Positions 1,695 through 17,826 of a DNA stretch of 25,850 nt are shown one piece after another; within the stretch, counting starts at the first letter, position 1, and every line of letters begins with the position of its first letter. The notes below the pieces were generated by a model that was not told where the DNA came from, ran no database searches, and saw nothing but the letters and a program-made list of their open reading frames with translations. Where the stretch lies: positions 1 to 25,850 of IMG/VR virus record IMGVR_UViG_3300034631_000013; one strand, given 5' to 3'. Source of the stretch: a virus. The position numbers and the translations under genes were made by a program.

Positions 1695-1705
1695 GCTTCC
1701 CCCAA

Positions 1706-1711
1706 TAAATA
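1706..1711 (+). promoter_or_regulatory. TAAATA box (scaffold unit)
   Basis: Copy 1 of 11, in context CCAATAAATAG. It lies 79 bases before the scaffold ATG, in the divergent gap next to the Ntn-hydrolase start. It matches the core of the T4 late-promoter box, and no -35 element is evident. Promoter function is inferred from the repeated placement. Confidence 0.6.
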
Positions 1712-1790
1712 GTTCGCAGTCGAAGCTAGGCCGAGACTGAGAACGCGGCAAGGCCGCCAACCAAGAAGTCCAAGGGGCCGAAAGGACGCT

Positions 1791-2405
1791 ATGAGCGAAA
1801 ACACCGATACCCACGAAGACCTAAGCGGTCTGAAAAATAAGATCACTGAACTCCTCGGAACGATCAAATCTGAGAAAGCCCGCGCCGACAAGGCAGAGCG
1901 GGAACGCGAGGAAGCTGCCGAGAGCGCAGCGACCGCGAACTCCACAGAACTAGAGAAGATGCAGAAGCGCGCTGAGAAGGCAGAGCGCGAACTAGAAGCT
2001 GCCAACAAGCTAGCCAAGGACAACGCACAGGCACTCCGCAACACCCGTGCGGATCACTCTATCGCCAAAGCAATCGCTGAGGCGAACGTCGATGCCAAGC
2101 ACGTCCGCGCGGCAACCGCCCTCCTCAAACTCGATATGTCGTTCGATGACGAAGGCAATGCCTTGATCGAAGGCAAGAGTGTTCAGGACTATGCTAAGGC
2201 CTACTTTGCCAAAGACGGCCTGACCTATGTCCGTGCAGCGGACAATGGAGGTGGTACGGCAAGTGGCAACACCTCAACAAAGCCGCCTGCCAAGCTGACT
2301 GCTCGTCCTACCACTTCTGCCGAATGGGACATTCTGGATGGTATGGATAAGACCGAGCGAAACGCATTTGCAGACAGCATCGGCGCACCTGACCTCAAGG
2401 TATAA
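1791..2405 (+). CDS. Capsid scaffolding protein, GP20-like
   Basis: This 204-aa acidic, highly helical protein has a long charged coiled coil at residues about 1-85 (repeated EKARADKAERERE-type heptads). A conserved segment follows at about 85-140 (SIAKAIAEANV...AATALLKLD...IEGKSVQDYAKAYF), then a low-complexity Gly/Thr/Ser linker and a C-terminal helical hook (EWDILDGMDKTERNAFADSIG). This is the layout of the phage minor structural protein GP20/scaffold family, whose C-terminus binds the coat protein inside the procapsid. It sits directly before the major capsid gene. The ATG at 1791 has an AAAGGA Shine-Dalgarno at 1781-1786 and a TAAATA box upstream. No separate maturation protease follows it on this strand. 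Confidence 0.85.
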   Translation: MSENTDTHEDLSGLKNKITELLGTIKSEKARADKAEREREEAAESAATANSTELEKMQKRAEKAERELEAANKLAKDNAQALRNTRADHSIAKAIAEANVDAKHVRAATALLKLDMSFDDEGNALIEGKSVQDYAKAYFAKDGLTYVRAADNGGGTASGNTSTKPPAKLTARPTTSAEWDILDGMDKTERNAFADSIGAPDLKV

Positions 2406-2424
2406 GTCACCAACTAGAGCCGCA

Positions 2425-2430
2425 TAAATA
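2425..2430 (+). promoter_or_regulatory. TAAATA box (major capsid unit)
   Basis: Copy 2 of 11, in context GCATAAATAGGG, 20 bases after the scaffold stop. The capsid ATG lies 78 bases downstream behind a structured leader, so this would be a leadered promoter. Confidence 0.65.
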
Positions 2431-2458
2431 GGGAACAGGCTGAAGTTTGCCTGTTCCC
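2431..2458 (+). repeat. 10-bp perfect inverted repeat after the TAAATA box
   Basis: GGGAACAGGC at 2431-2440 pairs perfectly with GCCTGTTCCC at 2449-2458 around an 8-base loop, and starts directly after the TAAATA box. There is no following T run, so it is not a classical terminator. If transcription starts 5-7 bases after the box, the 5' arm would be cut short. The full hairpin would then form only in read-through RNA, or act as a DNA site. Confidence 0.7.
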
Positions 2459-2498
2459 GGCTCCAACTTGCGAGCCGATTGGCTTAAACAAGTTGGAG
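2459..2498 (+). promoter_or_regulatory. Capsid leader with paired Shine-Dalgarno and competing hairpin
   Basis: CTCCAACTTG (2461-2470) is the perfect complement of CAAGTTGGAG (2489-2498), with an inner stem GAGCC/GGCTT around GATT. The capsid Shine-Dalgarno GGAG (2495-2498) is in the 3' arm and so is paired. A competing hairpin, GGCTC (2459-2463) with GAGCC (2472-2476) and loop CAACTTGC, uses the same CTC bases and would free it. The tail-tube leader has the same design. Confidence 0.55.
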
Positions 2499-2508
2499 AA
2501 CAACACGC

Positions 2509-3471
2509 ATGGCAATCACGAATACCACTATTGCTGGTCTAGCTGGTTCTGAGCGCAAAGTGGAAGTGCGTGTCAACGCAATCCGCGAAGCGTCGAACGA
2601 ACTGGTACAGAGCGGCCTCACTGCATCGAGCGAGGAAGTTAGCGCGCTCGCAAATGGCGGACCTCGCAAGGTATCGCTAGACTATCGCAAGCCACTGAAC
2701 GCAGACGCATTCAACGTTTCCAATGACAACATCAACACTGAAGGTGATGTCGGCAACATGGAAGCCGGTAGCTATTCGGCTATGCGTCTCGATCTAAACT
2801 ACGCATGGGCAACTACTGACCTTACCCAGATTGTAACTCAGTACGGTCGCAACCAAGACCTGTACGAAGGTATCGCGGGCTATCAGAACGCAGTAAGCAA
2901 AGGCCTACTGGCTTCCGCGCTTAAGGGCGTCAAGACCAAGCTTGCTACCAACACCAACATCACCAAGGCAGTTGCAACCGACTTCGACATGCAGGCGGTG
3001 TTCGACCTCTGCGCAACCGCTGAAGAGTGGTCGTCGCTGTTTCGCATTATGATCGTCAGCCACGGTCGCTACGCAAAGCTTCAGGGCCAGCAGAAGAACG
3101 GTTTTGTACCTGCATCGCAGACTCAGACCAAGTTCGATGAGTACCAGGGTTTCGTACTTCTAAAGAGCAACACTGTGGTAACCGATAACGATCTGATTAT
3201 CGCTCGCACTGGCGCGCTTGCATATGGTGAAGGCACTGCTCAGCAGGCTTTTGAAGTCGAGCGCAGGCAGAACGCTGCTGGCGGCGGTGGCGCAGACATC
3301 CTGCACTCGCGCTTCTCGCGTGTTATCCATCCACAGGGTATGGACTTTAAGGGCGCAATCCCAACAACTTCAGCACAGGTAAAGAGCGTCCTAGAAGCAG
3401 CCGCTTCATGGGACAAGGTAGCGCCAGACGCACAGTTTGGTTTCCGCTTCCTACAGTTCAACAAAGCTTAA
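2509..3471 (+). CDS. Major capsid protein
   Basis: This 320-aa protein follows the scaffold gene, is preceded by a dedicated box and structured leader, and is followed by a very stable hairpin, as expected for the most highly expressed virion gene. It reads MAITNTTIAGLAG with no signal peptide. Later segments (NYAWATTDLTQIV, IMIVSHGRYAKLQGQQ, HSRFSRVIHPQGMDFKGA) resemble coat proteins of HK97 fold found in phages with a GP20-like scaffold. The Gly-rich stretch NAAGGGGAD at about 257-265 may be a surface loop. The start is ATG 2509, with GGAG ten bases upstream. The role is well supported by position and pattern; the exact subfamily is not resolved. Confidence 0.85.
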   Translation: MAITNTTIAGLAGSERKVEVRVNAIREASNELVQSGLTASSEEVSALANGGPRKVSLDYRKPLNADAFNVSNDNINTEGDVGNMEAGSYSAMRLDLNYAWATTDLTQIVTQYGRNQDLYEGIAGYQNAVSKGLLASALKGVKTKLATNTNITKAVATDFDMQAVFDLCATAEEWSSLFRIMIVSHGRYAKLQGQQKNGFVPASQTQTKFDEYQGFVLLKSNTVVTDNDLIIARTGALAYGEGTAQQAFEVERRQNAAGGGGADILHSRFSRVIHPQGMDFKGAIPTTSAQVKSVLEAAASWDKVAPDAQFGFRFLQFNKA

Positions 3472-3480
3472 TCGTACTGC

Positions 3481-3508
3481 AAGGCTGCATTCTACGGAAT
3501 GCAGCCTT
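3481..3508 (+). terminator. Stable hairpin after the capsid gene (UACG loop)
   Basis: AAGGCTGCATTC (3481-3492) pairs perfectly with GAATGCAGCCTT (3497-3508) around a TACG loop. The closing C(UACG)G is a UNCG-type tetraloop, among the most stable known. It begins 10 bases after the capsid stop. No T run follows, so it may block 3' exonucleases or attenuate transcription rather than terminate fully. Confidence 0.65.
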
Positions 3509-3527
3509 CGCCATGACTGCCAGCCTC

Positions 3528-3533
3528 TAAATA
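3528..3533 (+). promoter_or_regulatory. TAAATA box (head-tail connector unit)
   Basis: Copy 3 of 11, in context CCTCTAAATAG. It ends 15 bases before the ATG at 3549, with GGAGG (3539-3543) between them, giving a very short leader that just includes a Shine-Dalgarno. CCTC (3524-3527) can pair with GAGG (3540-3543) in read-through RNA only. Confidence 0.65.
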
Positions 3534-3548
3534 GTCGTGGAGGTATTC

Positions 3549-3941
3549 ATGGCTACACTGAACCAAGCGAACTTATATCATGCCGTGCGGGACAATACCG
3601 CCTGGGGCAATCTCGATCCCTTGAAAGCGGAAGCGCTGTTGCAAGACGCAAGCGATTACATCCGAAGCCGGTATGACGTTCGCTCTGTCCTGACAACTGA
3701 TGAACAACACTTGTTCGACCAAGCGGTGTATCGACTTGCAGGTATCTTTCAAAGCAATCCGCCCGCAGGCGCTGCCTTGCCTTCCATCAAGAGCGAGAAG
3801 AAGGAACTGGCAGGTATGAAAAAGGAAGTGGAGTACACCGCCGCTGACCCCGATCCATATCCCTACATCACTGTGATTGTCCGGTCATTGTTGCGCGCGG
3901 ATACGTCCCACACCGTTCTTGTCGGCAAGGTGACAGGATGA
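3549..3941 (+). CDS. Head-tail connector/adaptor-like protein
   Basis: This small (130 aa) mostly helical protein comes first in the block between capsid and tail-tube genes, where tailed phages keep adaptor proteins that dock on the portal. The N-terminus (LNQANLYHAVRDNTAWGNLDPLKAEALLQDASDYIRSRYDV) has the pattern of gp6-type or DnaT-like connectors, whose helices bundle around the portal. I chose ATG 3549 because GGAGG lies five bases upstream; an in-frame GTG at 3537 has no ribosome site. Its stop overlaps the next ATG (ATGA), implying coupling. The assignment rests mainly on position and helical pattern. Confidence 0.65.
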   Translation: MATLNQANLYHAVRDNTAWGNLDPLKAEALLQDASDYIRSRYDVRSVLTTDEQHLFDQAVYRLAGIFQSNPPAGAALPSIKSEKKELAGMKKEVEYTAADPDPYPYITVIVRSLLRADTSHTVLVGKVTG

Positions 3942-4285
3942 ACCTCTACGAAGAGTTCTACCCCCTCGCTGTCGAGTTGCTTGAGGAGTTTGGCGCAGAT
4001 GCGCAGTTGGTAAAGACCGCCCCGGCTATCACCAACTATGATCCAGTCACCGATCGCGTAACTAGCACGACCACTCCCCAGACGATCAACGTTCGCGCGG
4101 TCGTCGGACCGTTCGAATGGGAGGACGACCAAGGACGGGCCGTAACGCGCTCTACTGCGACGCTGCTCGTTGCACCGGCGATGGGCGACATCCTGAAACT
4201 GGGCGACCTGTCCTATACCATAGGACGCTTCAAGACGATTGCTCCACAGGGCAAGGCCATCCTCTATCTCGCTGAGGTGTCGTAA
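3938..4285 (+). CDS. Head completion/stopper-like protein
   Basis: This 115-aa protein is encoded between connector and gp10-like genes, overlapping both (ATGA at 3938-3941, TAATG at 4283-4287). After an N-terminal helix it is mainly beta: TINVRAVVGPFEWED, ATLLVAPAMGDILKLGDLSYTIGRFKTIAPQGKAILYLAEV. The pattern of strands followed by 'GD.L..GD..Y.I' is typical of head-closure or stopper proteins (FII/gp16 class) that seal the packaged head. I recognise no named family with certainty. The order connector, stopper, gp10-like, tail terminator supports the call. Confidence 0.55.
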   Translation: MNLYEEFYPLAVELLEEFGADAQLVKTAPAITNYDPVTDRVTSTTTPQTINVRAVVGPFEWEDDQGRAVTRSTATLLVAPAMGDILKLGDLSYTIGRFKTIAPQGKAILYLAEVS

Positions 4286-4608
4286 TGGCACGGCGCACGG
4301 TGGATATGAGCGATTTGATCGCCAAGCGGGGAGCGCTGGAAAAGCTGCTCGAAAAGACCGTCCTCGACACCACGCAGAAAATCACGCTCGACGCAGGCGC
4401 TAGGCTTATGATCGCCTCCCCGGTCGATACAGGCGAGTTCCGTGGCGCTTGGGAGATTGAGGCGCCAATGAAGTCCTACGAGCCAGGGAGGATCACCAAC
4501 AACACCGTCTACGGCCCTGCGCTTGCGAGCGGCCATTCTGACCAAGCCAGCGACGGTTGGGTTGAAAACGCCTTGCTTGCGGCTGTCCGCTTTGGAGGTG
4601 GTCAGTGA
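4285..4608 (+). CDS. HK97 gp10-like head-tail joining protein
   Basis: This 107-aa protein carries the family core: a helix (KLLEKTVLDTTQKITLDAGARLMIASPVDTGEFRGAWEIE), then ITNNTVYGPALASGHSDQASDGWVENAL. The 'sPVDTGxfRgaW' motif followed by 'NxxxYaxxlExGhS' is the hallmark of HK97 gp10-type (gpZ-like) proteins that act at the head-tail or tail-completion stage. It is coupled to both neighbours by stop/start overlaps (TAATG upstream, GTGA downstream), so it depends on the box at 3528 for transcription. Confidence 0.75.
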   Translation: MARRTVDMSDLIAKRGALEKLLEKTVLDTTQKITLDAGARLMIASPVDTGEFRGAWEIEAPMKSYEPGRITNNTVYGPALASGHSDQASDGWVENALLAAVRFGGGQ

Positions 4609-5006
4609 TCCAGCAGGACCTAACGGCACTTCGCGCCCGTTTCTTCAGTGCCTTTGACGCGCAAGATGCTCAGGTACTCTGGCAAGGCAAGCCGACAATC
4701 AATCTGAATGAAACCAAACCTTACTCCCGCCTCCTGATTGAGCCGGGTGCGCGCGAGTTGGTCGAGATGGGGAACAGCCGAACCTATCTTCAACTCGGCC
4801 TGATTACCTTGTCGATCACCATTCCCAAAGGTGTGGGATTGGCCGTTGGATACGACCTCAGAGACAAGTTCGACAATCTGTTCCGCGACTGGCGCAGTGC
4901 CGACCGGGCAATCTCAATCAGAGGATCATCCGACACACTAACGGAGAACGACACTCACTTTATCCTACGCATTCGCTTTCGTTGGGAGAGCTTTAGAACT
5001 CTCTAA
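4605..5006 (+). CDS. Tail terminator-like protein
   Basis: The start is GTG 4605, overlapping the previous stop as GTGA. The 133-aa product has an N-terminal helix (IQQDLTALRARFFSAFDA), then strands including RLLIEPGARELVEMGNSRTYLQLGLITLSITIPKGVGLAVGYDLRDKFDNLFRDWR. This is the alpha/beta pattern of gpU/DUF4128-type tail terminators, which cap the tail tube and join it to the head. It is the last gene before the tail-tube gene, the usual place. The family call is by pattern and position. Its expression probably ends near 5006, where a new box serves the tail-tube gene. Confidence 0.65.
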   Translation: MIQQDLTALRARFFSAFDAQDAQVLWQGKPTINLNETKPYSRLLIEPGARELVEMGNSRTYLQLGLITLSITIPKGVGLAVGYDLRDKFDNLFRDWRSADRAISIRGSSDTLTENDTHFILRIRFRWESFRTL

Positions 5007-5031
5007 GTCCAAGCGACTTCCTCTCGTCCAA

Positions 5032-5037
5032 TAAATA
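5032..5037 (+). promoter_or_regulatory. TAAATA box (tail-tube unit)
   Basis: Copy 4 of 11, in context CCAATAAATAGACG, 52 bases before the tail-tube ATG. It sits in the loop of an inverted repeat: CCTCtCGTC (5020-5028) against GACGcGAGG (5038-5046), eight of nine pairs. Confidence 0.65.
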
Positions 5038-5044
5038 GACGCGA

Positions 5045-5085
5045 GGAGCCAGACTTGCGGCTCCAGTTTCAACATTGGAGGCCGC
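5045..5085 (+). promoter_or_regulatory. Tail-tube leader with paired Shine-Dalgarno and competing hairpin
   Basis: GCGGCTCCA (5057-5065) pairs with TGGAG-g-CCGC (5076-5085), nine pairs with one bulged G, hiding the GGAGG Shine-Dalgarno (5077-5081). A competing hairpin, GGAGCC (5045-5050) with GGCTCC (5059-5064) and loop AGACTTGC, uses the same CTCC bases. The capsid leader has the same arrangement and a loop ending in the same ACTTGC. Confidence 0.55.
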
Positions 5086-5088
5086 AAA

Positions 5089-6009
5089 ATGCCAATTAAT
5101 ACTGCCGACTTGCTTTTCTCCGCGATCAAAGAAACTGTCGCGGGAACGACCCCAACCACTGGTACTCGACTTGAGATTCCAGTGAAGACCGATCAGGCTC
5201 CACCTGTTCGCAACACTAGCCAGATTGAAGACGAAACCAAGCGTCCGAATCGCGAAGGTAACGCTCCATCGTCCGGTCACGCAATGACCGAATGGGACTT
5301 GTCCATGGTATCGCGCGGTGGCGCACTTATGGACCTCCTGATCGAAAGCGCAATCTCAGGTACTTTTGCAGGCACTTCGCCGGTTAAGGCACAGGGCGGC
5401 ACTGCCGACAGCACTTTCACGGTCGTATCGGTTCTGAAGACTGGTACTTCAGGCAATGCACTCGTGTACGAAGATGCAGGTTGCATGGCTCGTTCGTGGT
5501 CGGTCACTGCATCGGCCAAGGAAGGCGCAGAAGTTCAGTTTGGTATTCTCGGCACCAAGCGTACGGAGAAGACCAGCGACAACTCCCTGACTGTCACTAA
5601 GACCCCGGCTAGCGCAGTCCGTCACCTTTATAGCGATGTCAACGTAACCATCGCAGGTCAGGCCCTAGCTTATAGCAGCTTGGAGTTCTCGACCGAACAG
5701 GAGCGTGATGTCCGTGTCGTACTAGGTCAAATTTCGGCATCCGACATTTACACCACTGGCAAGCGCAAGACCACACTGACACTCAAAGCATACCGTGAAA
5801 GCTTTGCGGTAAACGCACTTGCGAATGCAGTCATGTCGGTTTCATTCACCATCGGCACTACTGGCAACGGCTACAAAGTCACTATCCCAGCCGCAAAGCT
5901 GATGACCCCAACGGACGAATTGGACGCTAGCGGCTTGCTCGTAGCGCTTGAGTTTGAAGCTAGCTACGACACTGTCACTGACACAGGTTTGGTTATCGAA
6001 AAGCTCTAA
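5089..6009 (+). CDS. Major tail (tube) protein
   Basis: This 306-aa, beta-rich protein lies between the tail terminator and the tail-assembly chaperones, the fixed place of the tail-tube subunit in siphoviruses. The N-terminus (MPINTADLLFSAIKETVAGTTPTTGTRLEIPVKTDQ) and the later segment SVTASAKEGAEVQFGILGTKRT match tube proteins of the 'phage tail tube, TTP' type. The C-terminal half repeats Ser/Thr-rich strands and may include an added Ig-like decoration. It has its own box at 5032, a structured leader and a downstream hairpin, the same treatment as the capsid gene and consistent with very high expression. ATG 5089 has GGAGG seven bases upstream. Confidence 0.8.
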   Translation: MPINTADLLFSAIKETVAGTTPTTGTRLEIPVKTDQAPPVRNTSQIEDETKRPNREGNAPSSGHAMTEWDLSMVSRGGALMDLLIESAISGTFAGTSPVKAQGGTADSTFTVVSVLKTGTSGNALVYEDAGCMARSWSVTASAKEGAEVQFGILGTKRTEKTSDNSLTVTKTPASAVRHLYSDVNVTIAGQALAYSSLEFSTEQERDVRVVLGQISASDIYTTGKRKTTLTLKAYRESFAVNALANAVMSVSFTIGTTGNGYKVTIPAAKLMTPTDELDASGLLVALEFEASYDTVTDTGLVIEKL

Positions 6010-6038
6010 GGTTTTCTCCTTTTCCCTTGATGCTTTTG

Positions 6039-6074
6039 ATGGGTGGGTGGCTCGCAAGGGTCGCCCATTCCCAT
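6039..6074 (+). terminator. Hairpin after the tail-tube gene
   Basis: ATGGG (6039-6043) pairs with CCCAT (6070-6074). After a small internal loop, GGGTGGC (6045-6051) pairs with GTCGCCC (6060-6066), allowing two G-T pairs. It lies 30 bases after the stop and just before the next box, like the hairpin after the capsid gene. There is no T run after it. Confidence 0.5.
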
Positions 6075-6086
6075 GTCTGCCGTATC

Positions 6087-6094
6087 TATAAATA
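6087..6094 (+). promoter_or_regulatory. Full TATAAATA box (tail-chaperone unit)
   Basis: Copy 5 of 11 and the only one matching all eight bases of the T4 late consensus. ATCTAT (6084-6089) and ATAGAT (6092-6097) form a perfect inverted repeat around it. The ATG at 6121 follows with AAGGAG upstream, so the leader would be about 20 bases. Confidence 0.7.
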
Positions 6095-6120
6095 GATTGC
6101 CTCATATAAAGGAGAACAAC

Positions 6121-6555
6121 ATGGCAAAGATTAAATTCGACAAACCTGACCGCTTCGACGCAGTACGTGCCGAGAAGGGTGTCAACCATACAATCTATGG
6201 CGCAAACGGCCATAACTACGGCACGTTCAAGACTTCGCTGATGGATGAAACTACTAAACTGTACCGTTTGGCTTACGAGCGCTTCCAGCGCGAGCATGGC
6301 GACGATCCTGAAGCAACGAGTGAAACAGCAGGTGTCTACTCGTTTGTAATGATCAATTTGCATGACTGGTCAGGTATTACTAGCGGTGGCAAGCCAGTCC
6401 CGTTCAGCAAAGAAGTCGCATATGAGTATCTGAAGGATGGAGTCCTCGAAGATGGCTGGCTCTATGCTGAGCTTCGCGCAAGAAGCATGGACGTGGCCAA
6501 CTACCAAAAGGTCGGCGATCCTCGTGCCACTAAGGATGAAGCGGCGGGAAAATAA
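6121..6555 (+). CDS. Tail assembly chaperone (gpG-like)
   Basis: This 144-aa protein lies between tail-tube and tape-measure genes, where siphoviruses encode the chaperones that coat the tape measure during tail assembly. It begins MAKIKFDKPDRFDAVRAEKGVNHTIYG and ends DEAAGK. The last sense codons form the slippery heptamer G GGA AAA, followed directly by the TAA stop. This is the lambda G/G-T arrangement and is the best evidence for the role. ATG 6121 has a good AAGGAG site. The ORF stays open upstream to 6043, but that would skip the Shine-Dalgarno and the box. Confidence 0.8.
   Translation: MAKIKFDKPDRFDAVRAEKGVNHTIYGANGHNYGTFKTSLMDETTKLYRLAYERFQREHGDDPEATSETAGVYSFVMINLHDWSGITSGGKPVPFSKEVAYEYLKDGVLEDGWLYAELRARSMDVANYQKVGDPRATKDEAAGK
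6546..6552 (+). other. Programmed -1 frameshift site GGGAAAA
   Basis: The heptamer is read G GGA AAA in the gpG-like frame (X XXY YYZ) and is followed at once by the TAA stop. Slipping back one base gives ATA ATC GCC GTC and enters the frame of the next gene at 6552 with no stop in between. Lambda uses GGGAAAG at the same place. Confidence 0.8.
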
Positions 6556-6563
6556 TCGCCGTC

Positions 6564-6899
6564 TTGGACTTTTGGAACAGCATTCCTCCCGAAGTGATTG
6601 CTGATGCCAAGGCGGGCAACCCACACGGGATAAGGGCGATGGCGAAAGCTCCTAAACTTGAACCGCGCTACGATTACTACATGGAGGCTTACAAGGAACT
6701 AGGCACCGAGAGACAGCAGGGTATGTCTCTCGGCCCTATACCAAACAGTGCAATCAGACAGTGGTGCGAGAATGAGGAACTCGACCCACTAGAAACTGAA
6801 GCCTTTCAATACGTCATCCGGACACTCGACAATCATCAGCGTGAGAAAGCCGCTGAGAAGATGGAGAAGGAACACGCTAAGTCGAAGGCCAAGCGATAA
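6564..6899 (+). CDS. Tail assembly chaperone, T part (made by frameshift)
   Basis: This frame has no convincing start of its own: TTG 6564 lacks a ribosome site. It is most likely translated only as an extension of the gpG-like protein after a -1 slip at 6546-6552. The fusion would add 115 residues from 6552, giving about 259 aa. The segment WNSIPPEVIADAKAGNPHGIRAM is followed by MSLGPIPNSAIRQWCENEELDPLETEAFQYVIRTLDN, which has the 'piP.saI..w....gldp.e.e.f..viR.lD' pattern of T-type partners upstream of tape measures. The C-terminus is highly charged (KAAEKMEKEHAKSKAKR). The tape measure starts 50 bases downstream. Confidence 0.75.
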   Translation: MDFWNSIPPEVIADAKAGNPHGIRAMAKAPKLEPRYDYYMEAYKELGTERQQGMSLGPIPNSAIRQWCENEELDPLETEAFQYVIRTLDNHQREKAAEKMEKEHAKSKAKR

Positions 6900-6922
6900 C
6901 GCCCCTGCCTACTCCCCCTGCG

Positions 6923-6928
6923 TAAATA
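6923..6928 (+). promoter_or_regulatory. TAAATA box (tape-measure unit)
   Basis: Copy 6 of 11, in context GCGTAAATACA, 21 bases before ATG 6950. CTACTCCC (6909-6916) and GGGAGTAG (6940-6947) flank it. The second arm contains the tape-measure Shine-Dalgarno, so only read-through RNA, and not RNA started at this box, could hide it. Confidence 0.65.
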
Positions 6929-6949
6929 CAATACACTTTGGGAGTAGAC

Positions 6950-9900
6950 ATGACAGACTTAGCAGCACGTATTGGTATTTCGATTGACAGTGGTGCTGCA
7001 AGGTCTGGTGCCAACTCCGTTATCGCAGAATACAATCGCATTATCAGCGGCGCACGTCCTGTAGCCGCCGCCAATGACAACATTGGCAAATCACTCGACA
7101 ACATTCGAAGGAAGGCCGGCGGCGCAGCTTCCGGCAGTAGCGCGGTTGCTCGTGCGTTCGATGACATTCGGGGCCGTGCAGCAGGTGCTGTTCCAGCCGT
7201 AGGCGGCCTAGTCAACAATCTCACTGCAATGGGACCAATGGCCGCTATCGTCGGCGGAGTTGCCCTAGCACTTGCGGCAGTCGGTACGGCTGCAATCAAG
7301 GCCGCTGCCCAGACACAGAGCTGGCTTGCACAGATCGAGACGATCACCAAGAGCAGCGAGAAGGCAAAGGAAACCTACGCCGCTGCCGTCCAGTTCGCCA
7401 ACACCACCCCATTCGATACCGGTCAATCCGTTCAGGCGTTCGTCAAGCTGCGCCAAATGGGTCTGGCTGCGACTGAGGAACGTCTGAAGTCCTTCGGCAA
7501 CACGGCATCGGCATCTGGGAAGTCGCTCAACCAGATGATCGAAGCCGTTGCCGATGCTGCAACCGGCGAGTTCGAACGCCTCAAGGAGTTCGGCATCAAG
7601 TCGAAGGTTGAAGGCGATAAGGTCCGTATGACGTTCCAGGGTGTCACCACCTCCATTGCCAACAACAGCGTTGCGATCACCAAGTACCTCGAAAGCATCG
7701 GCAACACTGCATACGCCGGGGCAATGGCCAAGCAGATGGCCGGGTTGAACGGCATGTTCGCCAACGTCGCAGACAGCGCCCGTTCCATGCTTTCTGCGAT
7801 CGGCGAGGGTCAGCTAGGCAAGGCCGTGGCCGCGATCGGCAATAGGATTGCGCAGGGCATCAGCGGCATTACGCCGTTCCTGGCCGCAATCGGCAACGCG
7901 GTCGGTGGCATCATCAGCGGTGTAGGTTCAGTCGTAGACGGGCTTGCGCAGGTCTGGATGAGCTTCGGCCAAGGGACGATGGCGCTCAGCATTCTCGACG
8001 GCCTGACCATTGGCTTCAACCTCGTCGCGCAAGGCGCACAGACGTTCGGCAATATCGTAGGCAGCGTGCTTGGGGCCGTGGGTTCGTTCGCATCGCAGGT
8101 CAGTTCGGCAATCGGGCTGTCGTTCGGTGGCGTACTCGACTGGCTAGGTATCAAGTTTGAGACCGGTGGCCGGTCATGGGCAAACAGCATCGTAGGAACG
8201 CTCCGTGCGGCCAAGACCGTTGCAGGCTTGCTCCCTCAGTTGTTCGGCATCGCGATCAACGAAGTGATCCGCATGTTCAGCAACCTGGGCAACATCATGA
8301 AGCGGGTGCTGAGCGGTGAGAGCATTGGCGACATTGCAGCCGGTACGTTCAAGCAAACCATTCGCGGTATCAACGCCGTAGGTCGTATCGCTGCCGCCGT
8401 TCAGGGAGACGTAAAGGGCGCAGAAGCAGCGATCGGTCGCCTGCGCGGACAGACTGTTGCTCCCAAGTGGGATAGCGGCACCGATAGCAAGCCGGACCCA
8501 TCGGGCAAAAAGGACGACAAGAAGGACAAGGGCAAAAGCGAAGCCGAGAAGCTAAAAGAGCGCATCGACGATTTTTGGAAGAAGCTTGAAGGCGACAACA
8601 AGGACGCCGACGCTCTTTGGAAAGCGCTCCAGCAGGCAGCAGCGCAGGGCAAGAACCTAGCCGTCGTCAGCGCAGACGTATCCAAGCAACTTGAGTATCA
8701 GCGCCTCGTAGGCCGCGACATCACGCAGGCTGAACGCCAGCGCATTGAGACCGCGCAGCAGATGGGTCGCACGGCCAAGTTCTTCAGCGACCAGCTCGTC
8801 AAATCCGCCGAGCGCACCATGGACATTTCCCAGCAGGAAGCACTGCTCGCCGTAAGGAAGACGGGCGCATCCGATGCTCAGCTTGCGGTCGAGAAGGCCA
8901 TTCTGGACAACCGGGAAACGGCGCTCAAAGCGGGTGTCGATCTGACCAGCGCAGCATATCGCGCACAGGAAGCGGCACTCCGTACAGACGTAGCGCGGGA
9001 ACAGGCCATCAAGGCTCAGAACGCGGCCCTGGACGAGCAGGCATCCAAGCTAGCTGAGATAACCCGTACAGGGGCCAGCTACGCCCGTGACGCCCTCAGG
9101 GACTACGGGAACGTCGGGCAGCGTCGTGGGGTCGCACAGGGTGAGTATGACGACCGTATGCGGGGTCTAAGGGCCGCCCGCGATAGCACGGGCGCCGACA
9201 AGATCTCGGCTGCACAATTTGAGGCAGGCGCAAAGCGAGCAGGCGAGGAATTGCAGGAACGGTTCCGTGACATCGGGACCGAGTTTGCCAATCGCATGAA
9301 CAAGGTTGCCAACCTCCTTGGCCGGATCGGTTCGGCTATTGGTGGCAGGGTTGGCGAAGCCGTGGACGGCATCGGCAATGTCGCGCGTGGCATCGGTGAT
9401 TTCGGCACAACCAAGGACGGCGTGAGCGCAGAGTTCCAGCAGCTATTTGCAAAAAACTCTGATTTGGTGAAGGGCATTGGCAACGCGGTCGGTGGTGCAG
9501 TCGGCGGGCTTCAGATTAGCGAAAGCATCACCAGCCTTGGCAAGACCCTGGGCATCAAGCTCAACGAAACCGGTTCGAAGATTGGTGGAGCGCTCGGCGG
9601 TATGGTCGGTGGCCCATTGGGTTCGATCATCGGCAGCATCGGCGGCGGGTTGATCGGCAACCTGTTCACCAAGCCAAAATACGGGACCGCGCAGCTTACC
9701 GGCGCAGGCGACCCTACGTTGTCGGGCCGTGGCAAAGGGCAGAAGAAGATTGCCAGCGGCGCAGCCGGTAGCGTTCAGGCAGGCATTGCGAACCTCGCTG
9801 AGCAGCTGGGCGGCCAGGTTGGCAAATACCTCGTTTCCATCGGCACCTACGATGGCAAGTGGCGTGTCAGCACGTCCGGTCAAACCGGCGAAATGTCGTT

Positions 9901-10732: not shown

Positions 10733-10742
10733 GGAGAAAGCG

Positions 10743-10748
10743 TAAATA
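10743..10748 (+). promoter_or_regulatory. TAAATA box 5 bases before an ATG
   Basis: Copy 7 of 11, in context GCGTAAATAGGTCT before ATG 10754. A T4-type start would fall on or beside the ATG, giving a leaderless message. An AGGAG lies 17 bases before the ATG, upstream of the box and too far for normal use. Confidence 0.65.
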
Positions 10749-10753
10749 GGTCT

Positions 10754-11110
10754 ATGAATGAGATTGACGCACAGAGGGTAGCTTTCGTCCAGCAAGCGCA
10801 CCGCTACACGGAAGCTAAGGACGTAACTGTTCTGGCTAGGAACCCGGACGCGGTTCTAGTCCGCATGGACACCAACCTTTCCTACGACGCGGCGGTAATC
10901 CGTGCGTCAGACGAACTGGAGGCTAACAACAGCGTAAGGGTCTTCGATGTAGAAGTTCATGCGCTCATGTACTTCGATGATTTCGTCGGTGGTCCTCCTG
11001 CGTTCAGTTTCACGAGCAAGGACCACAAGGTTTTCGATCGGACGATGAAGGTGGTTGCCTTCGCCTGTGATAGCAACACTGGTACTACTAATCTGAGGCT
11101 TCGCGGCTAA
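10754..11110 (+). CDS. Minor tail protein, hypothetical
   Basis: This 118-aa protein directly follows the tape measure and precedes the tail-tip genes, so a small distal-tail role is likely. It has an N-terminal helix (EIDAQRVAFVQQAHRYTEAKDVTVLARNPDAVLVRMD) followed by strands (SVRVFDVEVHALMYFDDFVGGPPAFSFTS, MKVVAFACDSNTG). I do not recognise a family. No Shine-Dalgarno lies within the usual distance of the ATG; the box at 10743 ends five bases before it. The stop overlaps the next start (TAATG). Confidence 0.65.
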   Translation: MNEIDAQRVAFVQQAHRYTEAKDVTVLARNPDAVLVRMDTNLSYDAAVIRASDELEANNSVRVFDVEVHALMYFDDFVGGPPAFSFTSKDHKVFDRTMKVVAFACDSNTGTTNLRLRG

Positions 11111-11868: not shown

Positions 11869-11882
11869 TTTTGCGATCCGCT

Positions 11883-11888
11883 TAAATA
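11883..11888 (+). promoter_or_regulatory. TAAATA box 4 bases before an ATG
   Basis: Copy 8 of 11, in context GCTTAAATAACGG before ATG 11893. ATCCG (11876-11880) and CGGAT (11890-11894) flank it, with the A and T of the start codon in the second arm. No Shine-Dalgarno is visible upstream, making this the clearest leaderless candidate. Confidence 0.7.
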
Positions 11889-11892
11889 ACGG

Positions 11893-14800
11893 ATGGCAAG
11901 TCTTAATATCCTTTTCGAAGTCCGCCCGTATATGCCGGGTGCCGGTCGATCCACAATCCGTCTCGCGAGTTCATCGGCAGATGCTACCGGAACCCAACTA
12001 GATGGATTGCAGTGGGAGCCGCTGATCGTAAGCGGCCCCGAATACTCATTCAAATATACAAGCGACCAGAACGGCCAGTTGGTTGAAGGCTCTGCCGATC
12101 TAGGCACGATCCAGTTCCGCATGGGCGACTTCTACGACAACGAGATTTGCACAACTTACGACTGGAACAACGCATCGTGTCGTGTCTGGGTTGGCGAACT
12201 AGGATCACCCTTTGCCTCTTACCGCAAACTCTTCGAAGCCACTACAAGCGGTATTCAGCGCGAAGGCGTAACCGCTACTGTTGCTCTTCGCTCCTTAACC
12301 GGACGACTGAACCGTCCCCTCCTTAGTGCAGTGTACGCAGGAACCGGAGGCGCAGAAGGTCCAGTAGGCATGAAGGGTGCGGTAAAGCCGATCACCATCG
12401 GCCACTGCCTCAGTGTCGAACCCGTCATCGTAGACGCCGCGAAGTGGATTTATCAGGTCCACGGCTACGGACCGGTTCAAGACATCGCAGCCGTCTATGA
12501 CTTTGCGCAGGCGTTGGCCGCACCTATCGCAAGTGTGGGAACCTACAACGAACTTGCTGCCCTTACCCTCAAGCCGGGTAAATGGGCAAAGTGCAATGCG
12601 CTCGGCATGTTCAGGCTTGGTGGAGCGTCCGACAAGAAGATCACCGCCGACGTGCAGGGAGGTATATTCTACGGCCAGTACCCCGACACAGTCGCAGACA
12701 TTCTTCCGGCCCTCCTGCGCAAAGCTGATTTCAGTGCTTCAGAAATTGGGTCGTTCGCCGCGCTAGCGAACAAGGGTTGGTCATTCTACTCGAAAGAACC
12801 CGTCGATGTAGGAACCGTCTGCCGCAAGGCCGTTCTGGATGCCGGTGGCTATCTAATTTCAGATAATCAAGGCGTCTGGCAGGTTGGCAACGCATTCGCG
12901 CCTAAGGCTGCAAAGCCCTTGCTCGCAGACGGGTCCGCAGAACCCTCTGTAGGGGCAATCCTCGAACGCAACGTCGCTGATCCCCTATGGCAAGTCGAGG
13001 TCGGCTATAACCCTTGCTGGGGCGTACACAGCGCCTCTGACATCAGTCCCAAGCTGCTGGAACTCGCCGGGTCGATCGCAGAGCAGGACGCCGCGTTAGA
13101 GCTGGTTAGGGAAACCGCAGATTTGGCCAAGGCCACAGCGGAAGCCGCGGAAATCGAAATCGACAACATGGGTGCCGACGGCATGCTCGATCGCAGCGAG
13201 AAAATCGACAATCAGCGATTGCTTGAGGAGGCTGCCGCCGAGCGCAGCGCCATCGCGAGCAAGATTGGTATCTACAACGCCGCGACCGAATGGAACGCCT
13301 ATGTCGCAGCCCATGAGGCTCTGAAGGCCTACCTAGCCCCGCTCCTGGCCGACATCACTGTCAACAGCCCGATCGATCGCGCGGCGTTCAAGGGCCGTTG
13401 GGCAACGTACCGGGAAAAGCACCAGGCCGTATGGAACGCCATGGCCGGGGACGCCCGCACGGTATCGACCTGGGCAGGCACGTCAGGAGCGGGAAAGCCG
13501 CAGGACAACGCGACGGTAGGCGCGAAGGCTGGCCTGAATCTCCTCGACCAAAACGGTGCAGCAATCGTGACGTTGGAGGACGGCGCGACCAAGGGTGCAC
13601 CAGTCGGAACGGATGTCGGCGGAAAACCCGTTATTGATGTCATATCCGATTTGGGAAAGATCGCCCCTATCGAGGTAGCGCAGGTGGAAGCGGGTCGCGC
13701 AATCCTCAATGCGCAGCTTTTGGCGGAACAGCGCCGCCAACGATACGAAGACATCACACACGTCAGCGGTCTACCGCTCGGTCCTGTCGTAGCTCGTATC
13801 GATCAAGAACGGGTGCAGGGCGACAAGGCAATAACCGATACCGTCTCGTTGATCGGGCAGAAGCGGGCAGACGGGCAAGCCTTCATCCTCAACGGTTCCA
13901 CGGTCGAGATCGAACCCGGCAAGTCACTGGTTTCGCGGCTGTCGGAATTAAGCAGCCTGACGACAGCGGACGTAAGCAGCGCTGTTTCAGCCCGCATATC
14001 GTCATACGACGAAGTTCTGACTTCGCGTACCGGTGCTATTGCCCGTCAGGTAGATGGTTTAGAGGCAAAAATAAACGCCCCCGGCGGCCCCATCGCGGCT
14101 GCAATCAACAGCTATGACCGTACAACCGTTGATCCAGCTGACCCGACTACCAAGACGGTAGCGGAATCGGTTCGCACTCTGCGATCCACGGTCGGTGGCC
14201 AATCCAGTGAAATTGCGTTCATCCTTCGCGCACTGAACGGCAACGAAGCTACCGCCCAACTTGTCCTGACTGCGAACGGGAAAGTGTCGGGTCTGCGTTT
14301 GCAGGGAAGCACCCGCAGCATCGCGTTCGATGTAAAGAAATTCAGCATCGAAGACCCGGACACCGGAAAATCCTACTTCGTCGCCGACGCCAACGATGGC
14401 GGCAAGGTGAAGATGTATGACGTTGAGGTTGACCGGATCAAAGCTGGTTCGGTGGATAGCCCGAGCCTTGCAATCGCCGCTACCTCACGCAGCAGCTTCG
14501 CGACACTATCGAGTGACGTGGCGTGTCCTTACAATACGACCGCCGATGTCATCTCGTTCGTATTCGACAAGGTTGACGCCGATAGCGTCCTAAAGGTCCA
14601 GATGTTCGCGCAGGCGGACCATGCCGACGATCTTATCTTTACGGGCGAAATCGTGGTGGATGGCAACGTAGCCCAGACCGCGCGAGTTCGAATGCCGTTC
14701 GACAACAGTAATTCTCGTGGCTCTGTCCCGATCACCCCATTTGCGTTCGTGTCTGGCATCGCGCCGGGAAGCCATACCGTCACGTTCCGCTTGCGCAGTC

Positions 14801-14946
14801 TCGATACGGAAGGACCGACATACGTTCGCGCGGGATCGACGCTGGAGGTCACGGAACTACGTCGTGCGGCGGCGGCAGTCGTCCAAACCAACACGGTTGT
14901 TAACGGCAGCGGTGGCGGTGGCGGTGGTGGCGAGGTGCTGGAGTAA
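11893..14946 (+). CDS. Central tail tip / host specificity protein, gpJ-like C-terminus
   Basis: This 1017-aa protein is the main tip protein. Residues about 1-370 form a beta-rich hub region (YMPGAGRSTIRLASSS, GSADLGTIQFRMGDFYDNEICTTYDW, TVALRSLTGRLNRPL). Residues about 385-500 are a helical region with DNMGADGMLDRSEKI and WNAYVAAHEALKAYLAPLLAD, the 'D.vLs..EK....y.....aY.aa..aL..YL' pattern common in gpJ-type proteins. A long coiled region follows. Near 810-855, VSGLRLQGSTRSIAFDVKKFSIEDPDTGKSYFVADANDGGKVKMYDVEVDRIKAGSV is a DUF1983-like tip segment. It ends in a Gly-rich tail before EVLE. No Shine-Dalgarno precedes the ATG; the TAAATA box ends four bases before it. Confidence 0.8.
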   Translation: MASLNILFEVRPYMPGAGRSTIRLASSSADATGTQLDGLQWEPLIVSGPEYSFKYTSDQNGQLVEGSADLGTIQFRMGDFYDNEICTTYDWNNASCRVWVGELGSPFASYRKLFEATTSGIQREGVTATVALRSLTGRLNRPLLSAVYAGTGGAEGPVGMKGAVKPITIGHCLSVEPVIVDAAKWIYQVHGYGPVQDIAAVYDFAQALAAPIASVGTYNELAALTLKPGKWAKCNALGMFRLGGASDKKITADVQGGIFYGQYPDTVADILPALLRKADFSASEIGSFAALANKGWSFYSKEPVDVGTVCRKAVLDAGGYLISDNQGVWQVGNAFAPKAAKPLLADGSAEPSVGAILERNVADPLWQVEVGYNPCWGVHSASDISPKLLELAGSIAEQDAALELVRETADLAKATAEAAEIEIDNMGADGMLDRSEKIDNQRLLEEAAAERSAIASKIGIYNAATEWNAYVAAHEALKAYLAPLLADITVNSPIDRAAFKGRWATYREKHQAVWNAMAGDARTVSTWAGTSGAGKPQDNATVGAKAGLNLLDQNGAAIVTLEDGATKGAPVGTDVGGKPVIDVISDLGKIAPIEVAQVEAGRAILNAQLLAEQRRQRYEDITHVSGLPLGPVVARIDQERVQGDKAITDTVSLIGQKRADGQAFILNGSTVEIEPGKSLVSRLSELSSLTTADVSSAVSARISSYDEVLTSRTGAIARQVDGLEAKINAPGGPIAAAINSYDRTTVDPADPTTKTVAESVRTLRSTVGGQSSEIAFILRALNGNEATAQLVLTANGKVSGLRLQGSTRSIAFDVKKFSIEDPDTGKSYFVADANDGGKVKMYDVEVDRIKAGSVDSPSLAIAATSRSSFATLSSDVACPYNTTADVISFVFDKVDADSVLKVQMFAQADHADDLIFTGEIVVDGNVAQTARVRMPFDNSNSRGSVPITPFAFVSGIAPGSHTVTFRLRSLDTEGPTYVRAGSTLEVTELRRAAAAVVQTNTVVNGSGGGGGGGEVLE

Positions 14947-14949
14947 ATA
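14944..14949 (+). promoter_or_regulatory. TAAATA box 5 bases before an ATG
   Basis: Copy 9 of 11; its TAA is also the stop codon of the tip protein. It is followed by CCGTC and ATG 14955. A GGAG directly before the box (14940-14943) is 11 bases from the ATG, so a weak normal ribosome site cannot be excluded. Confidence 0.55.
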
Positions 14950-14954
14950 CCGTC

Positions 14955-15434
14955 ATGCCGACACCTACAATCGAAGAACTGCTGACAAAGAATGGCGACC
15001 TGTTTGCTGCGATGGAGCGCGAGCAGCTTGGCTGGTCCATGATCCTGTCAGGAACAGCGAACGACCCGAACAGCTATGACGAAGCGGGCGGCAAGACTGG
15101 TCCGTTGGGCTATTATCCGCTGACAGATGCGAATGGCGCGATCCATTATCGACCGTGCATCGCCCGCATTCGCGCTATGGCCGAAACGCCTTCGACTGCG
15201 GTTTCCGAAGCGGTTCAAACGCTTGCGAACGCGCGCCTTGAACGAACATCGCTGGTCAACGGTAGCGCGACCATGACCCTTACCGGCAACGGCGCAACGA
15301 CCATCCAGCTTGGTGGGGACATGACCTATACTGGTCGCCTCGATGTTACGGAAAACGGCTTGGCGATCCACGCCGGGGTCATCTCCGTCAGCGACACGAA
15401 CGGCATCATGCGCGTCAGGATCGGGCGACGGTAA
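14955..15434 (+). CDS. Tail tip accessory protein, hypothetical
   Basis: This 159-aa protein follows the tip protein. The N-terminal third is helical (TIEELLTKNGDLFAAMEREQLGWSMILS). The rest is strand-rich with regular Thr/Gly repeats (GSATMTLTGNGATTIQLGGDMTYTGRLDVTENGLAIHAGVISVSD) that look like a short beta-helix or fibre shaft. I do not recognise a family. It is coupled to the next gene by TAATG (15432-15436). The position and beta repeats suggest a virion tip or fibre-base protein. Confidence 0.6.
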   Translation: MPTPTIEELLTKNGDLFAAMEREQLGWSMILSGTANDPNSYDEAGGKTGPLGYYPLTDANGAIHYRPCIARIRAMAETPSTAVSEAVQTLANARLERTSLVNGSATMTLTGNGATTIQLGGDMTYTGRLDVTENGLAIHAGVISVSDTNGIMRVRIGRR

Positions 15435-15742
15435 TGCTCGAAACATGGGACGCCGCCGGCCAGCCAGTTATTGATCGGGAAACCCGACTGTTTCGACAGT
15501 TCGGCACACTGCGCATCGGTCGAGATTTCACCGGGAACGATGGCGTTGGGACCGTCTTTGACGAACGGTTTGCTACCGGGACCGCTGTGTTTCTCCGCCT
15601 CGACGGTGGTGCAAATGCCTACGATGCCGTCGTGACGATCGCGGGGCGGACCCTGACGTGGGAGTTTTTTGAACCGGTCCGTTGGCGCAACGGCGTATTG
15701 GTGACGCGCCCGAACGCACGCTACGCCTATGGTGTAATGTGA
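15434..15742 (+). CDS. Tail tip accessory protein, DUF6453-like pattern
   Basis: This 102-aa beta-rich protein starts MLETWDAAGQPVIDRETRLFRQFGTLRIGR. It ends with VVTIAGRTLTWEFFEPVRWRNGVLVTRPNARYAYGVM. The layout 'fd..G..v.d..tRl.r.lG...' followed by 'tltW.....' resembles small proteins found after tip genes in enterobacterial phages (DUF6453 type). This is recalled from pattern, not checked by search. The start overlaps the previous stop (TAATG) and the stop overlaps the next start (GTGA). It is probably a tip accessory subunit. Confidence 0.6.
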   Translation: MLETWDAAGQPVIDRETRLFRQFGTLRIGRDFTGNDGVGTVFDERFATGTAVFLRLDGGANAYDAVVTIAGRTLTWEFFEPVRWRNGVLVTRPNARYAYGVM

Positions 15743-16269
15743 TCCAGACGTTCGCAGACAACCGTGTTCAGTTCGATGGTGATGATATGACCTGGGCGTT
15801 GGCACGCAGTGGGACCGCCACAGTCCAGAGCGGTCAACTGACGATTCCGGCAGATCGCGCATCAGTCGTTGCCCTCGCAGGCGACATTGGAAGGATCGCA
15901 ACCCAGTCTGCTGGCAATCACAACTCCCGAACATTCTCAGTGTCCGGTCAGAACGGCAACGCTACGAACTACTTCGTTTTCGAAGAAGTGGCCACTCTCA
16001 GCGACGGGCAACCGCTTTTTGAGACGCGGAATAGTAAGGGCGAAACCACTTTTACATCGGGGCTGTATCCACTCAAACTTATTGCGGTGATTGATCGTGG
16101 GCAGCATTTTGCAACAGGAAAGATCATAGCTTATGTTCAGATTTCAGGGCGGACCACTGTCGTTGACGTGACCGGCTGCCCGATAATCGCAACAGTGGTT
16201 CGGAGAGTAAATAGTCCTATGCGGGCCACGAACCGAATGAGCGGTTCATCATTCTGGCTCGGCATTTAG
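15739..16269 (+). CDS. Tail tip/fibre protein, hypothetical
   Basis: I set the start at GTG 15739, which overlaps the previous stop as GTGA. The ATG further upstream (15682) would overlap the previous gene by 60 bases and adds unlikely residues. The 176-aa product is strand-rich (MTWALARSGTATVQSGQLTIPADRASVVALAGDIGRIATQ, FVFEEVATLSDGQPLFETRNSKGETTFTSGLYPLKLIAVIDRG), has no catalytic motif, and ends RMSGSSFWLGI. The box at 16208 lies inside its last 21 codons, with an in-frame ATG five bases after it. Family unknown; position argues for a virion protein. Confidence 0.6.
   Translation: MIQTFADNRVQFDGDDMTWALARSGTATVQSGQLTIPADRASVVALAGDIGRIATQSAGNHNSRTFSVSGQNGNATNYFVFEEVATLSDGQPLFETRNSKGETTFTSGLYPLKLIAVIDRGQHFATGKIIAYVQISGRTTVVDVTGCPIIATVVRRVNSPMRATNRMSGSSFWLGI
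16208..16213 (+). promoter_or_regulatory. TAAATA box inside the end of a coding region
   Basis: Copy 10 of 11, in context GAGTAAATAGTCCT. It lies within the previous gene and 64 bases before ATG 16277, which has its own AGGAG. An ATG at 16219, five bases after the box and in frame with the host gene, would give only a 16-residue peptide. Confidence 0.55.
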
Positions 16270-16276
16270 GAGACGA

Positions 16277-17014
16277 ATGGCATTTGTTAGTAAGACACTC
16301 GTAGATGCAAACGGAGTAGAGTTCCCCGGACTGTTTTTTGATGCCGGTGGTGCTGGCATCATACCTGTTTCGGTCGCGGTCGATAGGTTCGCAACGCCGG
16401 TCGATTTCTCAACCAAGCCGATGATCGGCGGTCTCTACAACGATATGCGGCTTGGCGCGGGTAAGGTTCCCCCGCTGGTCGCGATCGGTGATACCGCAAC
16501 AATTCAGAGCGACAAATACGGCGTATTGCGGGTCAGCCTCGCACAAGACGGGCGCGAAATGGTTTGCGCGACCATGACCACGATGGTCAATCAGCAGGTG
16601 TTCTCAAACACCGGGTTGGCACTTTTGGGGTCGATGCCCGCCAACATTGATGGCCGCACGAACAAGATCACCTTTGACCGCTGCGTCAACTCGAACTGGC
16701 GCTTGATGCAGTCGGCGGCAACGACGAACGCCACCCTTGTCTTTGCCGGAGCGTCGCGTTTGGCCCGGTTGCAGGGGCAATGCGCCACCGATGTTGTTTC
16801 ATATGTCAAAATCTACGACCTCGCGACCGCTCCCACGCAATCGTCGGTGCCCGTCATGGTGTTCGAGGTAACGGGCGCGTTCTCGCTCGACCTTTGCAGC
16901 CTCGTGATGCTTAACGGCATCGGGGTACGCATCACGCGCAACATCGCGGATAACGACAACACGGCGGTCAACGCAGGAGATGTCCGCGCGCTGAATCTGA
17001 CTTACGCGCGATGA
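16277..17014 (+). CDS. Virion surface/tail fibre-base protein, hypothetical
   Basis: This 245-aa protein has a good AGGAG seven bases after the previous stop. Its last 60 residues (VVSYVKIYDLATAPTQSSVPVMVFEV...GIGVRITRNIADNDNTAVNAGDVRALNLTYAR) match a domain often seen in phage tail and fibre-associated proteins, of pattern 'lKlYnkatapt.g...Pv......G.a..it...ad.D.tav.agdv..n..Y'. The N-terminal half is beta-rich and probably anchors to the tip. The stop overlaps the next ATG as ATGA, coupling it to the lyase-like gene. It is likely the anchor or base of a receptor-binding assembly. Confidence 0.65.
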   Translation: MAFVSKTLVDANGVEFPGLFFDAGGAGIIPVSVAVDRFATPVDFSTKPMIGGLYNDMRLGAGKVPPLVAIGDTATIQSDKYGVLRVSLAQDGREMVCATMTTMVNQQVFSNTGLALLGSMPANIDGRTNKITFDRCVNSNWRLMQSAATTNATLVFAGASRLARLQGQCATDVVSYVKIYDLATAPTQSSVPVMVFEVTGAFSLDLCSLVMLNGIGVRITRNIADNDNTAVNAGDVRALNLTYAR

Positions 17015-17817
17015 TGTACTCCCGTCCCGACTTCCGGGGAAACGCTATCAACGAACCGATGCGACATGTCGTAGGCGGCTCGCAATATCGCCGCTCCTAC
17101 GCCTTCGAACGTGCCAATACCCACCAGTACAAGCTGGTGCTCGATGGCCAAATACAGCGGTTCGAGGTGCGGTCCGGTGATGTAGGCGACGCGACGAATC
17201 TGGTCAGCGGCAACGAACGCTCGGAGGTCGTTGTCGATGCGCCGCTCACACCGGGCAGACCGGAAAGCATCTTCGCATTCGAGGAAGAGGGTTGGCTCGC
17301 TTACTCATTCATGATCGAAACGCCGATCACGGCAGAATTCGCCATTGTCGGACAATGGCACGATTATCCTGAGCCGGAAGACGTGCATATGTCACCGCCA
17401 CTATCATTCGTGGCTTACCCATCGAAGGTGCAGAACGGGCAAACTGTCATCCCCTTCGCAATGGCGACGATGTTTGATCCAAACTTGGCCTCACCAATCG
17501 CGAATCCAAATTACCGAACTCGATGGAGCGGTTCGCTCGTGATGGGGAAATGGACGAACATTGTCCTGAACTTTCGGGCGAGCATCAAAGATACTGGGTT
17601 CCTGCGACTTTGGCTCGATGGTGAGCTTGTATGCAACGCGGAAAATATTAGCTTCGGGTTCAACAACAGAACCGGTTTTGCATACTGGCAGTACGGCATT
17701 TACCGGAAGAAAGATGCGAACACGATGATCGCGCACTACGCGAACATGCGGGTCGGGCGCGAGAATATGGCGCATCTGATTGACCAGCCAAACCCGCTGC
17801 TAGGTAGGAGCGCATAA
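17011..17817 (+). CDS. Polysaccharide lyase-like tail depolymerase
   Basis: This 268-aa protein has the signature elements of heparin-lyase-like and alginate-lyase-like jelly-roll enzymes: NERSEV (residues 68-73), GQWH (114-117), and AYWQYGIYR (to 232), preceded by TNIVLNFRASIKDTGFLRLWLDGELV. In this superfamily (heparin lyase I, PL7, PL20) the Arg-Ser-Glu, Gln-x-His and Tyr-x-Tyr-Arg elements line the catalytic groove. It has no signal peptide and is coupled to the fibre-base gene (ATGA), so it is most likely a virion-bound depolymerase that strips capsule or exopolysaccharide for adsorption. The substrate cannot be read from sequence. Its TAA stop is the first half of the next box. Confidence 0.75.
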   Translation: MMYSRPDFRGNAINEPMRHVVGGSQYRRSYAFERANTHQYKLVLDGQIQRFEVRSGDVGDATNLVSGNERSEVVVDAPLTPGRPESIFAFEEEGWLAYSFMIETPITAEFAIVGQWHDYPEPEDVHMSPPLSFVAYPSKVQNGQTVIPFAMATMFDPNLASPIANPNYRTRWSGSLVMGKWTNIVLNFRASIKDTGFLRLWLDGELVCNAENISFGFNNRTGFAYWQYGIYRKKDANTMIAHYANMRVGRENMAHLIDQPNPLLGRSA

Positions 17818-17820
17818 ATA
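17815..17820 (+). promoter_or_regulatory. TAAATA box 6 bases before an ATG
   Basis: Copy 11 of 11; its TAA is the lyase stop codon. CGCAT (17811-17815) and ATGCG (17822-17826) form a perfect hairpin that lies exactly between an AGGAG (17806-17810) and ATG 17827. In read-through RNA, folding could bring that distant Shine-Dalgarno next to the start. Confidence 0.6.
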
Positions 17821-17826
17821 AATGCG

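Follow-up and report, generated by a model that had tools for sequence, protein, structure and literature searches.

A strand-oriented TAAATA array at late-gene junctions of Sphingomonadales prophages: a putative -10-only late promoter that may also gate translation

Introduction

Late promoters of the T4 style are tied to T4-related phages and to replication-coupled machinery. The T4 element is a TATA box of 8 bp in the -10 position, and the -35 position is empty; in the T4-like phage Aeh1, -13/-12 differ from the late consensus (PMC2988020). Ribosome-binding-site locks operate at the T4 genes e, soc, 49 and I-TevI, and in the case of gene e the late promoters supply an RNA that is without the 5' strand of the lock hairpin (PMC3014915). 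Alphaproteobacterial phage-like late genes under a sigma-like activator are described for the Rhodobacter GTA with its activator GafA, a system compared here by description and for which no TAAATA array is described in the part of the source drawn on (PMC9638019).

The window, by which we mean the whole stretch of DNA analysed here, is the 25,850-base IMG/VR record IMGVR_UViG_3300034631_000013, probably a fragment. Its late genes carry TAAATA boxes which resemble the T4-family late promoters (gp55/gp33/gp45) in being confined to the -10 region, with no -35 (PMC2988020). They share the TAAATA core, corresponding to positions -11 to -6 of the T4 late consensus TATAAATA, and the arrangement of one (here putative) promoter per late gene group. 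In T4 the RNA begins about 6 bases past the core, and for the boxes two sequence arguments point to base 5-6. Unlike in T4, only six bases are kept, T is avoided at -2, no AT-rich stretch follows the box, the array resides in prophages that are GC-rich and about 25-45 kb long, and the records searched gave no gp55-family protein. As in the T4 ribosome-site locks, read-through RNA is predicted to hide the Shine-Dalgarno sequence (SD) while RNA from the late promoter would be free of the 5' hairpin strand (PMC3014915). However, the T4 locks are described for a few genes, whereas a trend over many junctions is seen here beside an equally large leaderless class. No such array was found by us in the literature searched.

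Results

The TAAATA array of the late gene block

The window has a GC content of 56.9%, slightly below the value of about 58% given in an earlier note on this DNA, and contains a late gene block of siphovirus type (Table 1), beyond which, from about 19.95 kb onwards, genes lie mostly on the minus strand. The eleven plus-strand TAAATA positions listed in the earlier note proved exact, with none on the minus strand and none outside the late block. Dinucleotide shuffling of the 19.95-kb block gives an expectation of 1.6 occurrences on the plus and 1.1 on the minus strand, and not one of 2000 shuffles reached 11 on the plus strand. All 11 boxes are located at late-gene junctions and 10 of them fall into non-coding gaps, which make up roughly one tenth of the block; two (14944 and 17815) supply the TAA stop codon to the preceding gene. 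Late genes that lack a box of their own overlap the stop of their neighbour or follow by frameshift, as the earlier note had described.

Table 1. Late gene block, TAAATA boxes and capsid leader of the window.
Feature	Position	Strand	Description
Late gene block, siphovirus type	105..19952	+	Head morphogenesis, scaffold, capsid, adaptor, head closure, tail terminator, major tail, chaperones, tape measure, tip, lysis
Box 1	1706..1711	+	Before scaffold gene (start 1791), SD present; same junction boxed in relatives
Box 2	2425..2430	+	Before major capsid gene (start 2509)
Structured major capsid leader	2431..2508	+	Hairpin P1 directly behind box 2; hairpin P2 with SD in its 3' strand
Box 3	3528..3533	+	15 bases upstream of adaptor gene (start 3549)
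Box 4	5032..5037	+	Before major tail gene (5089); SD lock (predicted)
Box 5	6089..6094	+	Within TATAAATA; before tail assembly chaperone (6121)
Box 6	6923..6928	+	Before tape measure gene (6950); box in loop of SD lock (predicted)
Box 7	10743..10748	+	5 bases before ATG 10754; leaderless class
Box 8	11883..11888	+	4 bases before ATG 11893 of tail tip gene; leaderless class
Box 9	14944..14949	+	TAA is preceding stop; 5 bases before ATG 14955; leaderless class
Box 10	16208..16213	+	63 bases before ATG 16277; in last 60 bases of small ORF 15739-16269
Box 11	17815..17820	+	TAA is preceding stop; 6 bases before ATG 17827; leaderless class

Conservation in related prophages

Conservation of the boxes at the same junctions in relatives, a check which the earlier note had proposed, was clearly borne out. 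Relatives identified by their capsid protein carry 12/0, 11/0, 9/0, 7/0, 7/0, 9/2 and 10/0 boxes (plus/minus strand) and, even where capsid identity falls to 36%, keep them at the same junctions, although the intergenic DNA has otherwise diverged. Their named hosts are Sphingobium, Novosphingobium and Croceicoccus, and every array prophage with a known host belongs to the Sphingomonadales. Searches with the head morphogenesis and tape measure proteins led to further array contigs: those with a head protein at least 54% identical carry arrays (a few short or partial, with 1-5 boxes), and among the more distant head-protein matches only L114, the contig of L008, has one. When six late blocks were pooled, TAAATA came out top among the hexamers for both Markov excess and strand asymmetry, with 58 occurrences against 23 expected under a maximal-order Markov model and a single occurrence of its reverse complement.

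The named phages with a related capsid, the Guernseyvirinae, have no array, and their boxes are unordered and on both strands. Two of the tail genes gave no match to any named phage. In one contig (L144 / G418, 13397-13877) TAAATA repeats are spaced 60 bases apart (120 in one place); this is probably a tandem repeat, which inflates the TAAATA count there.

Arrays in prophages with unrelated virions

Scanning of 60 Sphingomonadaceae genomes for TAAATA-N4/5-ATG revealed a cluster in one genome, corresponding to a prophage of about 33 kb (L241-L243; G021:C7, about 96700-130000). This prophage carries the same box array, yet its structural genes are without blastp homology to the window phage and its portal is of the P22 type (Pfam P22_portal, 7e-81). 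Two of its boxes stand back to back (TATTTATAAATA), each 4 bases from an ATG, and the pair (CATCGCGTATTTATAAATATCCGATG) faces the divergent terminase and portal sides, leaving no room for a -35 element or for a shared upstream element. One-strand boxes are also present in a prophage remnant with another terminase type, including TAAATA-CCGG-GTG before the terminase gene, and the structural genes of this remnant again have no detectable homology to the window phage. A search of viral contigs for the back-to-back pattern matched almost only AT-rich phages and was uninformative.

Sequence of the motif

Logos of 91 and then of 232 junctions show that the TAAATA hexamer alone is conserved. Upstream of the box no base exceeds 0.36 bit in any class; there is thus no -35 element, as the earlier note had stated, and the back-to-back pair leaves no space for one. 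T is avoided two bases before the box (4 of 91), and therefore the 'TA' prefix of the T4 consensus is not part of the motif. The full 8-mer TATAAATA occurs at just one of the 11 window boxes (6089), so that the complete T4 consensus reported in the earlier note is real at that box while its prefix is not conserved in the family. Behind the box the bases are C/G-rich, without an AT-rich stretch, and G is weakly favoured at +4. Similarly, the G reported after seven boxes is true of the window and is not conserved in the family.

Leaderless starts close behind the box

The boxes at the 232 junctions fall into two classes, one with a start codon close behind the box and no SD (class L) and one with an SD (class S); with start codons chosen by rule, 34 boxes (about 15%) fit neither class under the start rules used. 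Junctions were removed from this set only at 70% identity or more; related phages contribute orthologous junctions, so that the counts are not independent events. Neither the fusion of many boxes to start codons nor the ribosome-site locks at many others had been seen in the earlier note.

In 94 of the 232 junctions the box is followed after 3-7 bases by a start codon (after 4 bases in 42, after 5 in 41), and only one of these 94 class L starts has an SD. A neutral count, in which any ATG opening at least 100 codons without an SD was accepted, gave box-to-ATG distances of 4 (29 cases), 5 (30), 6 (3) and 7 bases (1), none at 8-11 and the next at 12. TAAATA is the commonest hexamer at the 4-5-base spacing before an SD-less ATG, with 60 occurrences compared to 12 for the next independent hexamer. 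With class L start codons 4-5 bases past the box, the first base of the codon is base 5 or 6 behind the box.

Predicted ribosome-site locks

Most other junctions belong to class S, and in about half of all cases 12-106 bases, the SD among them, separate the box from the start. In read-through RNA, bases upstream of the box or immediately after it are predicted to pair with this SD and mask it. Compared with shifted control windows, stems starting at the 3' edge of the box are strongly enriched, an excess that may arise partly from the placing of an AT-rich hexamer in GC-rich DNA. For short leaders, the predicted cost of opening the SD is 5.3 kcal/mol in read-through RNA and 2.2 kcal/mol when the RNA starts at base 6. 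The difference between the two costs amounts to 3.1 kcal/mol, as compared to 0.9 in a control set of 90 no-box genes from these phages (p = 1.4e-4) and 1.0 in shuffled leaders.

When the 5' end is moved base by base, the predicted SD cost drops only between base 1 (4.55) and base 5 (3.69). The minimum lies at base 5 in 77% and at base 6 in 15% of bootstraps, and shuffled leaders remain flat. This boundary at base 5 implies that the SD-hiding strand ends where class L puts the RNA start. The earlier note had placed the RNA start 5-8 bases past the box, and two independent arguments from sequence now point to base 5-6.

In the window, the tape-measure junction is a clear lock case, as CTACTCCC just upstream of box 6923 is predicted to pair with GGGAGTAG at the SD and the opening cost falls from 10.2 in read-through to 1.0 in box-started RNA. 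The corresponding predicted costs are 12.5 and 7.5 at box 4, and 5.2 and 0.4 at box 1 with a start 6 bases past the box. In leaders longer than 45 bases, above all in the capsid leader, the SD is often predicted to stay hidden whatever the RNA start.

The major capsid leader

The two stable hairpins predicted in the capsid leader are conserved in nine phages, with compensatory changes, and the leader has no Rfam match. An RNA start at base 5-6 is predicted to trim P1 to about half and to leave P2 intact. The capsid gene does not fit a simple lock because P2, which holds the SD, survives such a start; the leader may be a separate translational regulator.

Candidates for the reader of the box

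Searches for a protein that could read the box were made in related records, in which the early regions are mostly missing; they gave no Sigma70_r4 (region 4) domain and no Sigma70_r2 (region 2) match above the cut-off, and a 12-bit Sigma70_r2 match in G412 was rejected as it lies inside a 3000-codon frame. The gp55 family (phrog_234) had no match in 18 records or genomes, where early regions are often missing.

A family of proteins of about 130 amino acids, X1, is often found beside a larger paralogue (L303:9905-10294 and relatives, A7). The X1 genes lie near the packaging genes on the strand opposite to the late genes, and all eight viral contigs fetched with X1 have one-strand or strongly one-sided arrays. 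The AlphaFold model of X1 is confident, and a fold search with it gave no significant match and only weak PUR-like matches. As a candidate reader, X1 has against it that several array phages are without it, and its model does not resemble the helical sigma-2 fold. A zinc-ribbon family shared with the P22-type prophage, a second candidate, is scattered over many genomes, and DUF6771 is a third candidate.

Discussion

A conserved, oriented box at late junctions, the lack of a -35 element and two features that agree on the start position together argue for a promoter. The late-promoter reading of the array, put forward in the earlier note, gains support from box conservation at the same junctions and from both start-position arguments. 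We consider it highly probable that TAAATA is a -10-only late promoter, that RNA begins 5 or 6 bases behind it and that the same box gates translation. The box would be read when the phage enters the late phase, with TAAATA as the whole promoter core, by host RNA polymerase carrying a phage-encoded specificity factor functionally like T4 gp55. The gene behind a box would be translatable only from RNA begun at that box. In class L the start codon would be the first codon of a leaderless RNA without SD, while in class S the box-started RNA would be without the upstream hairpin strand and the SD would be freed. Such locks could keep lysogens from making late proteins off stray transcripts, and in Sphingomonadales a factor of one type may act in two or more kinds of virus whose virions are unrelated. 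A stronger version, which we advance tentatively and with rather more doubt than belief, is that the factor is unrelated to both gp55 and sigma-70, occurs across Sphingomonadales prophages of unrelated sipho- and podovirus type and locks nearly every late gene at the levels of transcription and translation.

The same 5' ends, and hence leaderless or unlocked mRNAs, would be produced if long late transcripts were cut about 5 bases past each UAAAUA by an endonuclease specific for this sequence. In keeping with such processing, many boxes are flanked by co-oriented genes, and hairpins start right after boxes. However, the two units behind the back-to-back pair of the P22-type prophage diverge, so that read-through RNA reaches either box only antisense to the other gene, and processing would leave unexplained why the oriented element in use matches the T4-family late core exactly; we therefore judge processing improbable. 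Some mycobacteriophages have start-associated sequences, and a translation signal of that kind would account for class L boxes standing exactly 4-5 bases before the ATG, but it has next to no probability in view of the half of the boxes that are 12-106 bases from the start with an SD between. Mycobacteriophage L5 has stoperators, and the boxes could likewise be oriented repressor sites that halt elongation in the prophage, being short, oriented, at gene boundaries and in prophages. This also seems very improbable, as neither the fixed 4-5-base spacing to SD-less starts nor the SD-lock boundary at base 5 would be explained.

Within the promoter reading itself, the boxes might be recognised by the host housekeeping sigma together with a phage activator in place of a phage sigma-like factor, for which it speaks that a phage sigma factor was not found in the related records. 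The -10 element of sigma-70 has a conserved T at -7 that TAAATA does not have, and there is neither a -35 element nor a conserved upstream activator site; we regard this variant as unlikely, while giving it some weight.

If the late-promoter reading is true, the T4 core would serve small temperate sipho- and podoviruses as their late code, and its reader would be a widely travelled or re-invented factor, for whose discovery the array is a ready assay. From the array, the 5' ends of RNAs can be predicted with single-base precision for dozens of prophages, and start codons can be corrected. The locks would represent a general route to silent prophage late genes, in which stray RNA is untranslatable, and class L would amount to a large natural collection of leaderless phage mRNAs.

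Other features of the window and related prophages

The late gene at 18090-19442 of the window contains a domain of the SGNH/GDSL hydrolase type and is possibly a tail-associated esterase. On the minus strand, two small overlapping genes (22916-23197 and 23182-23550) encode products with similar C-termini (LFKLAW and LLKLTW), and short proteins resembling them occur elsewhere in related prophages, for example at 5413-5685 of G003. A small serine recombinase gene is located beside or between the genes for the small and large terminase subunits, in varying orientation, in G001, G003, G006, G408, G411 and G412, and large serine integrases are present in several of the prophages.
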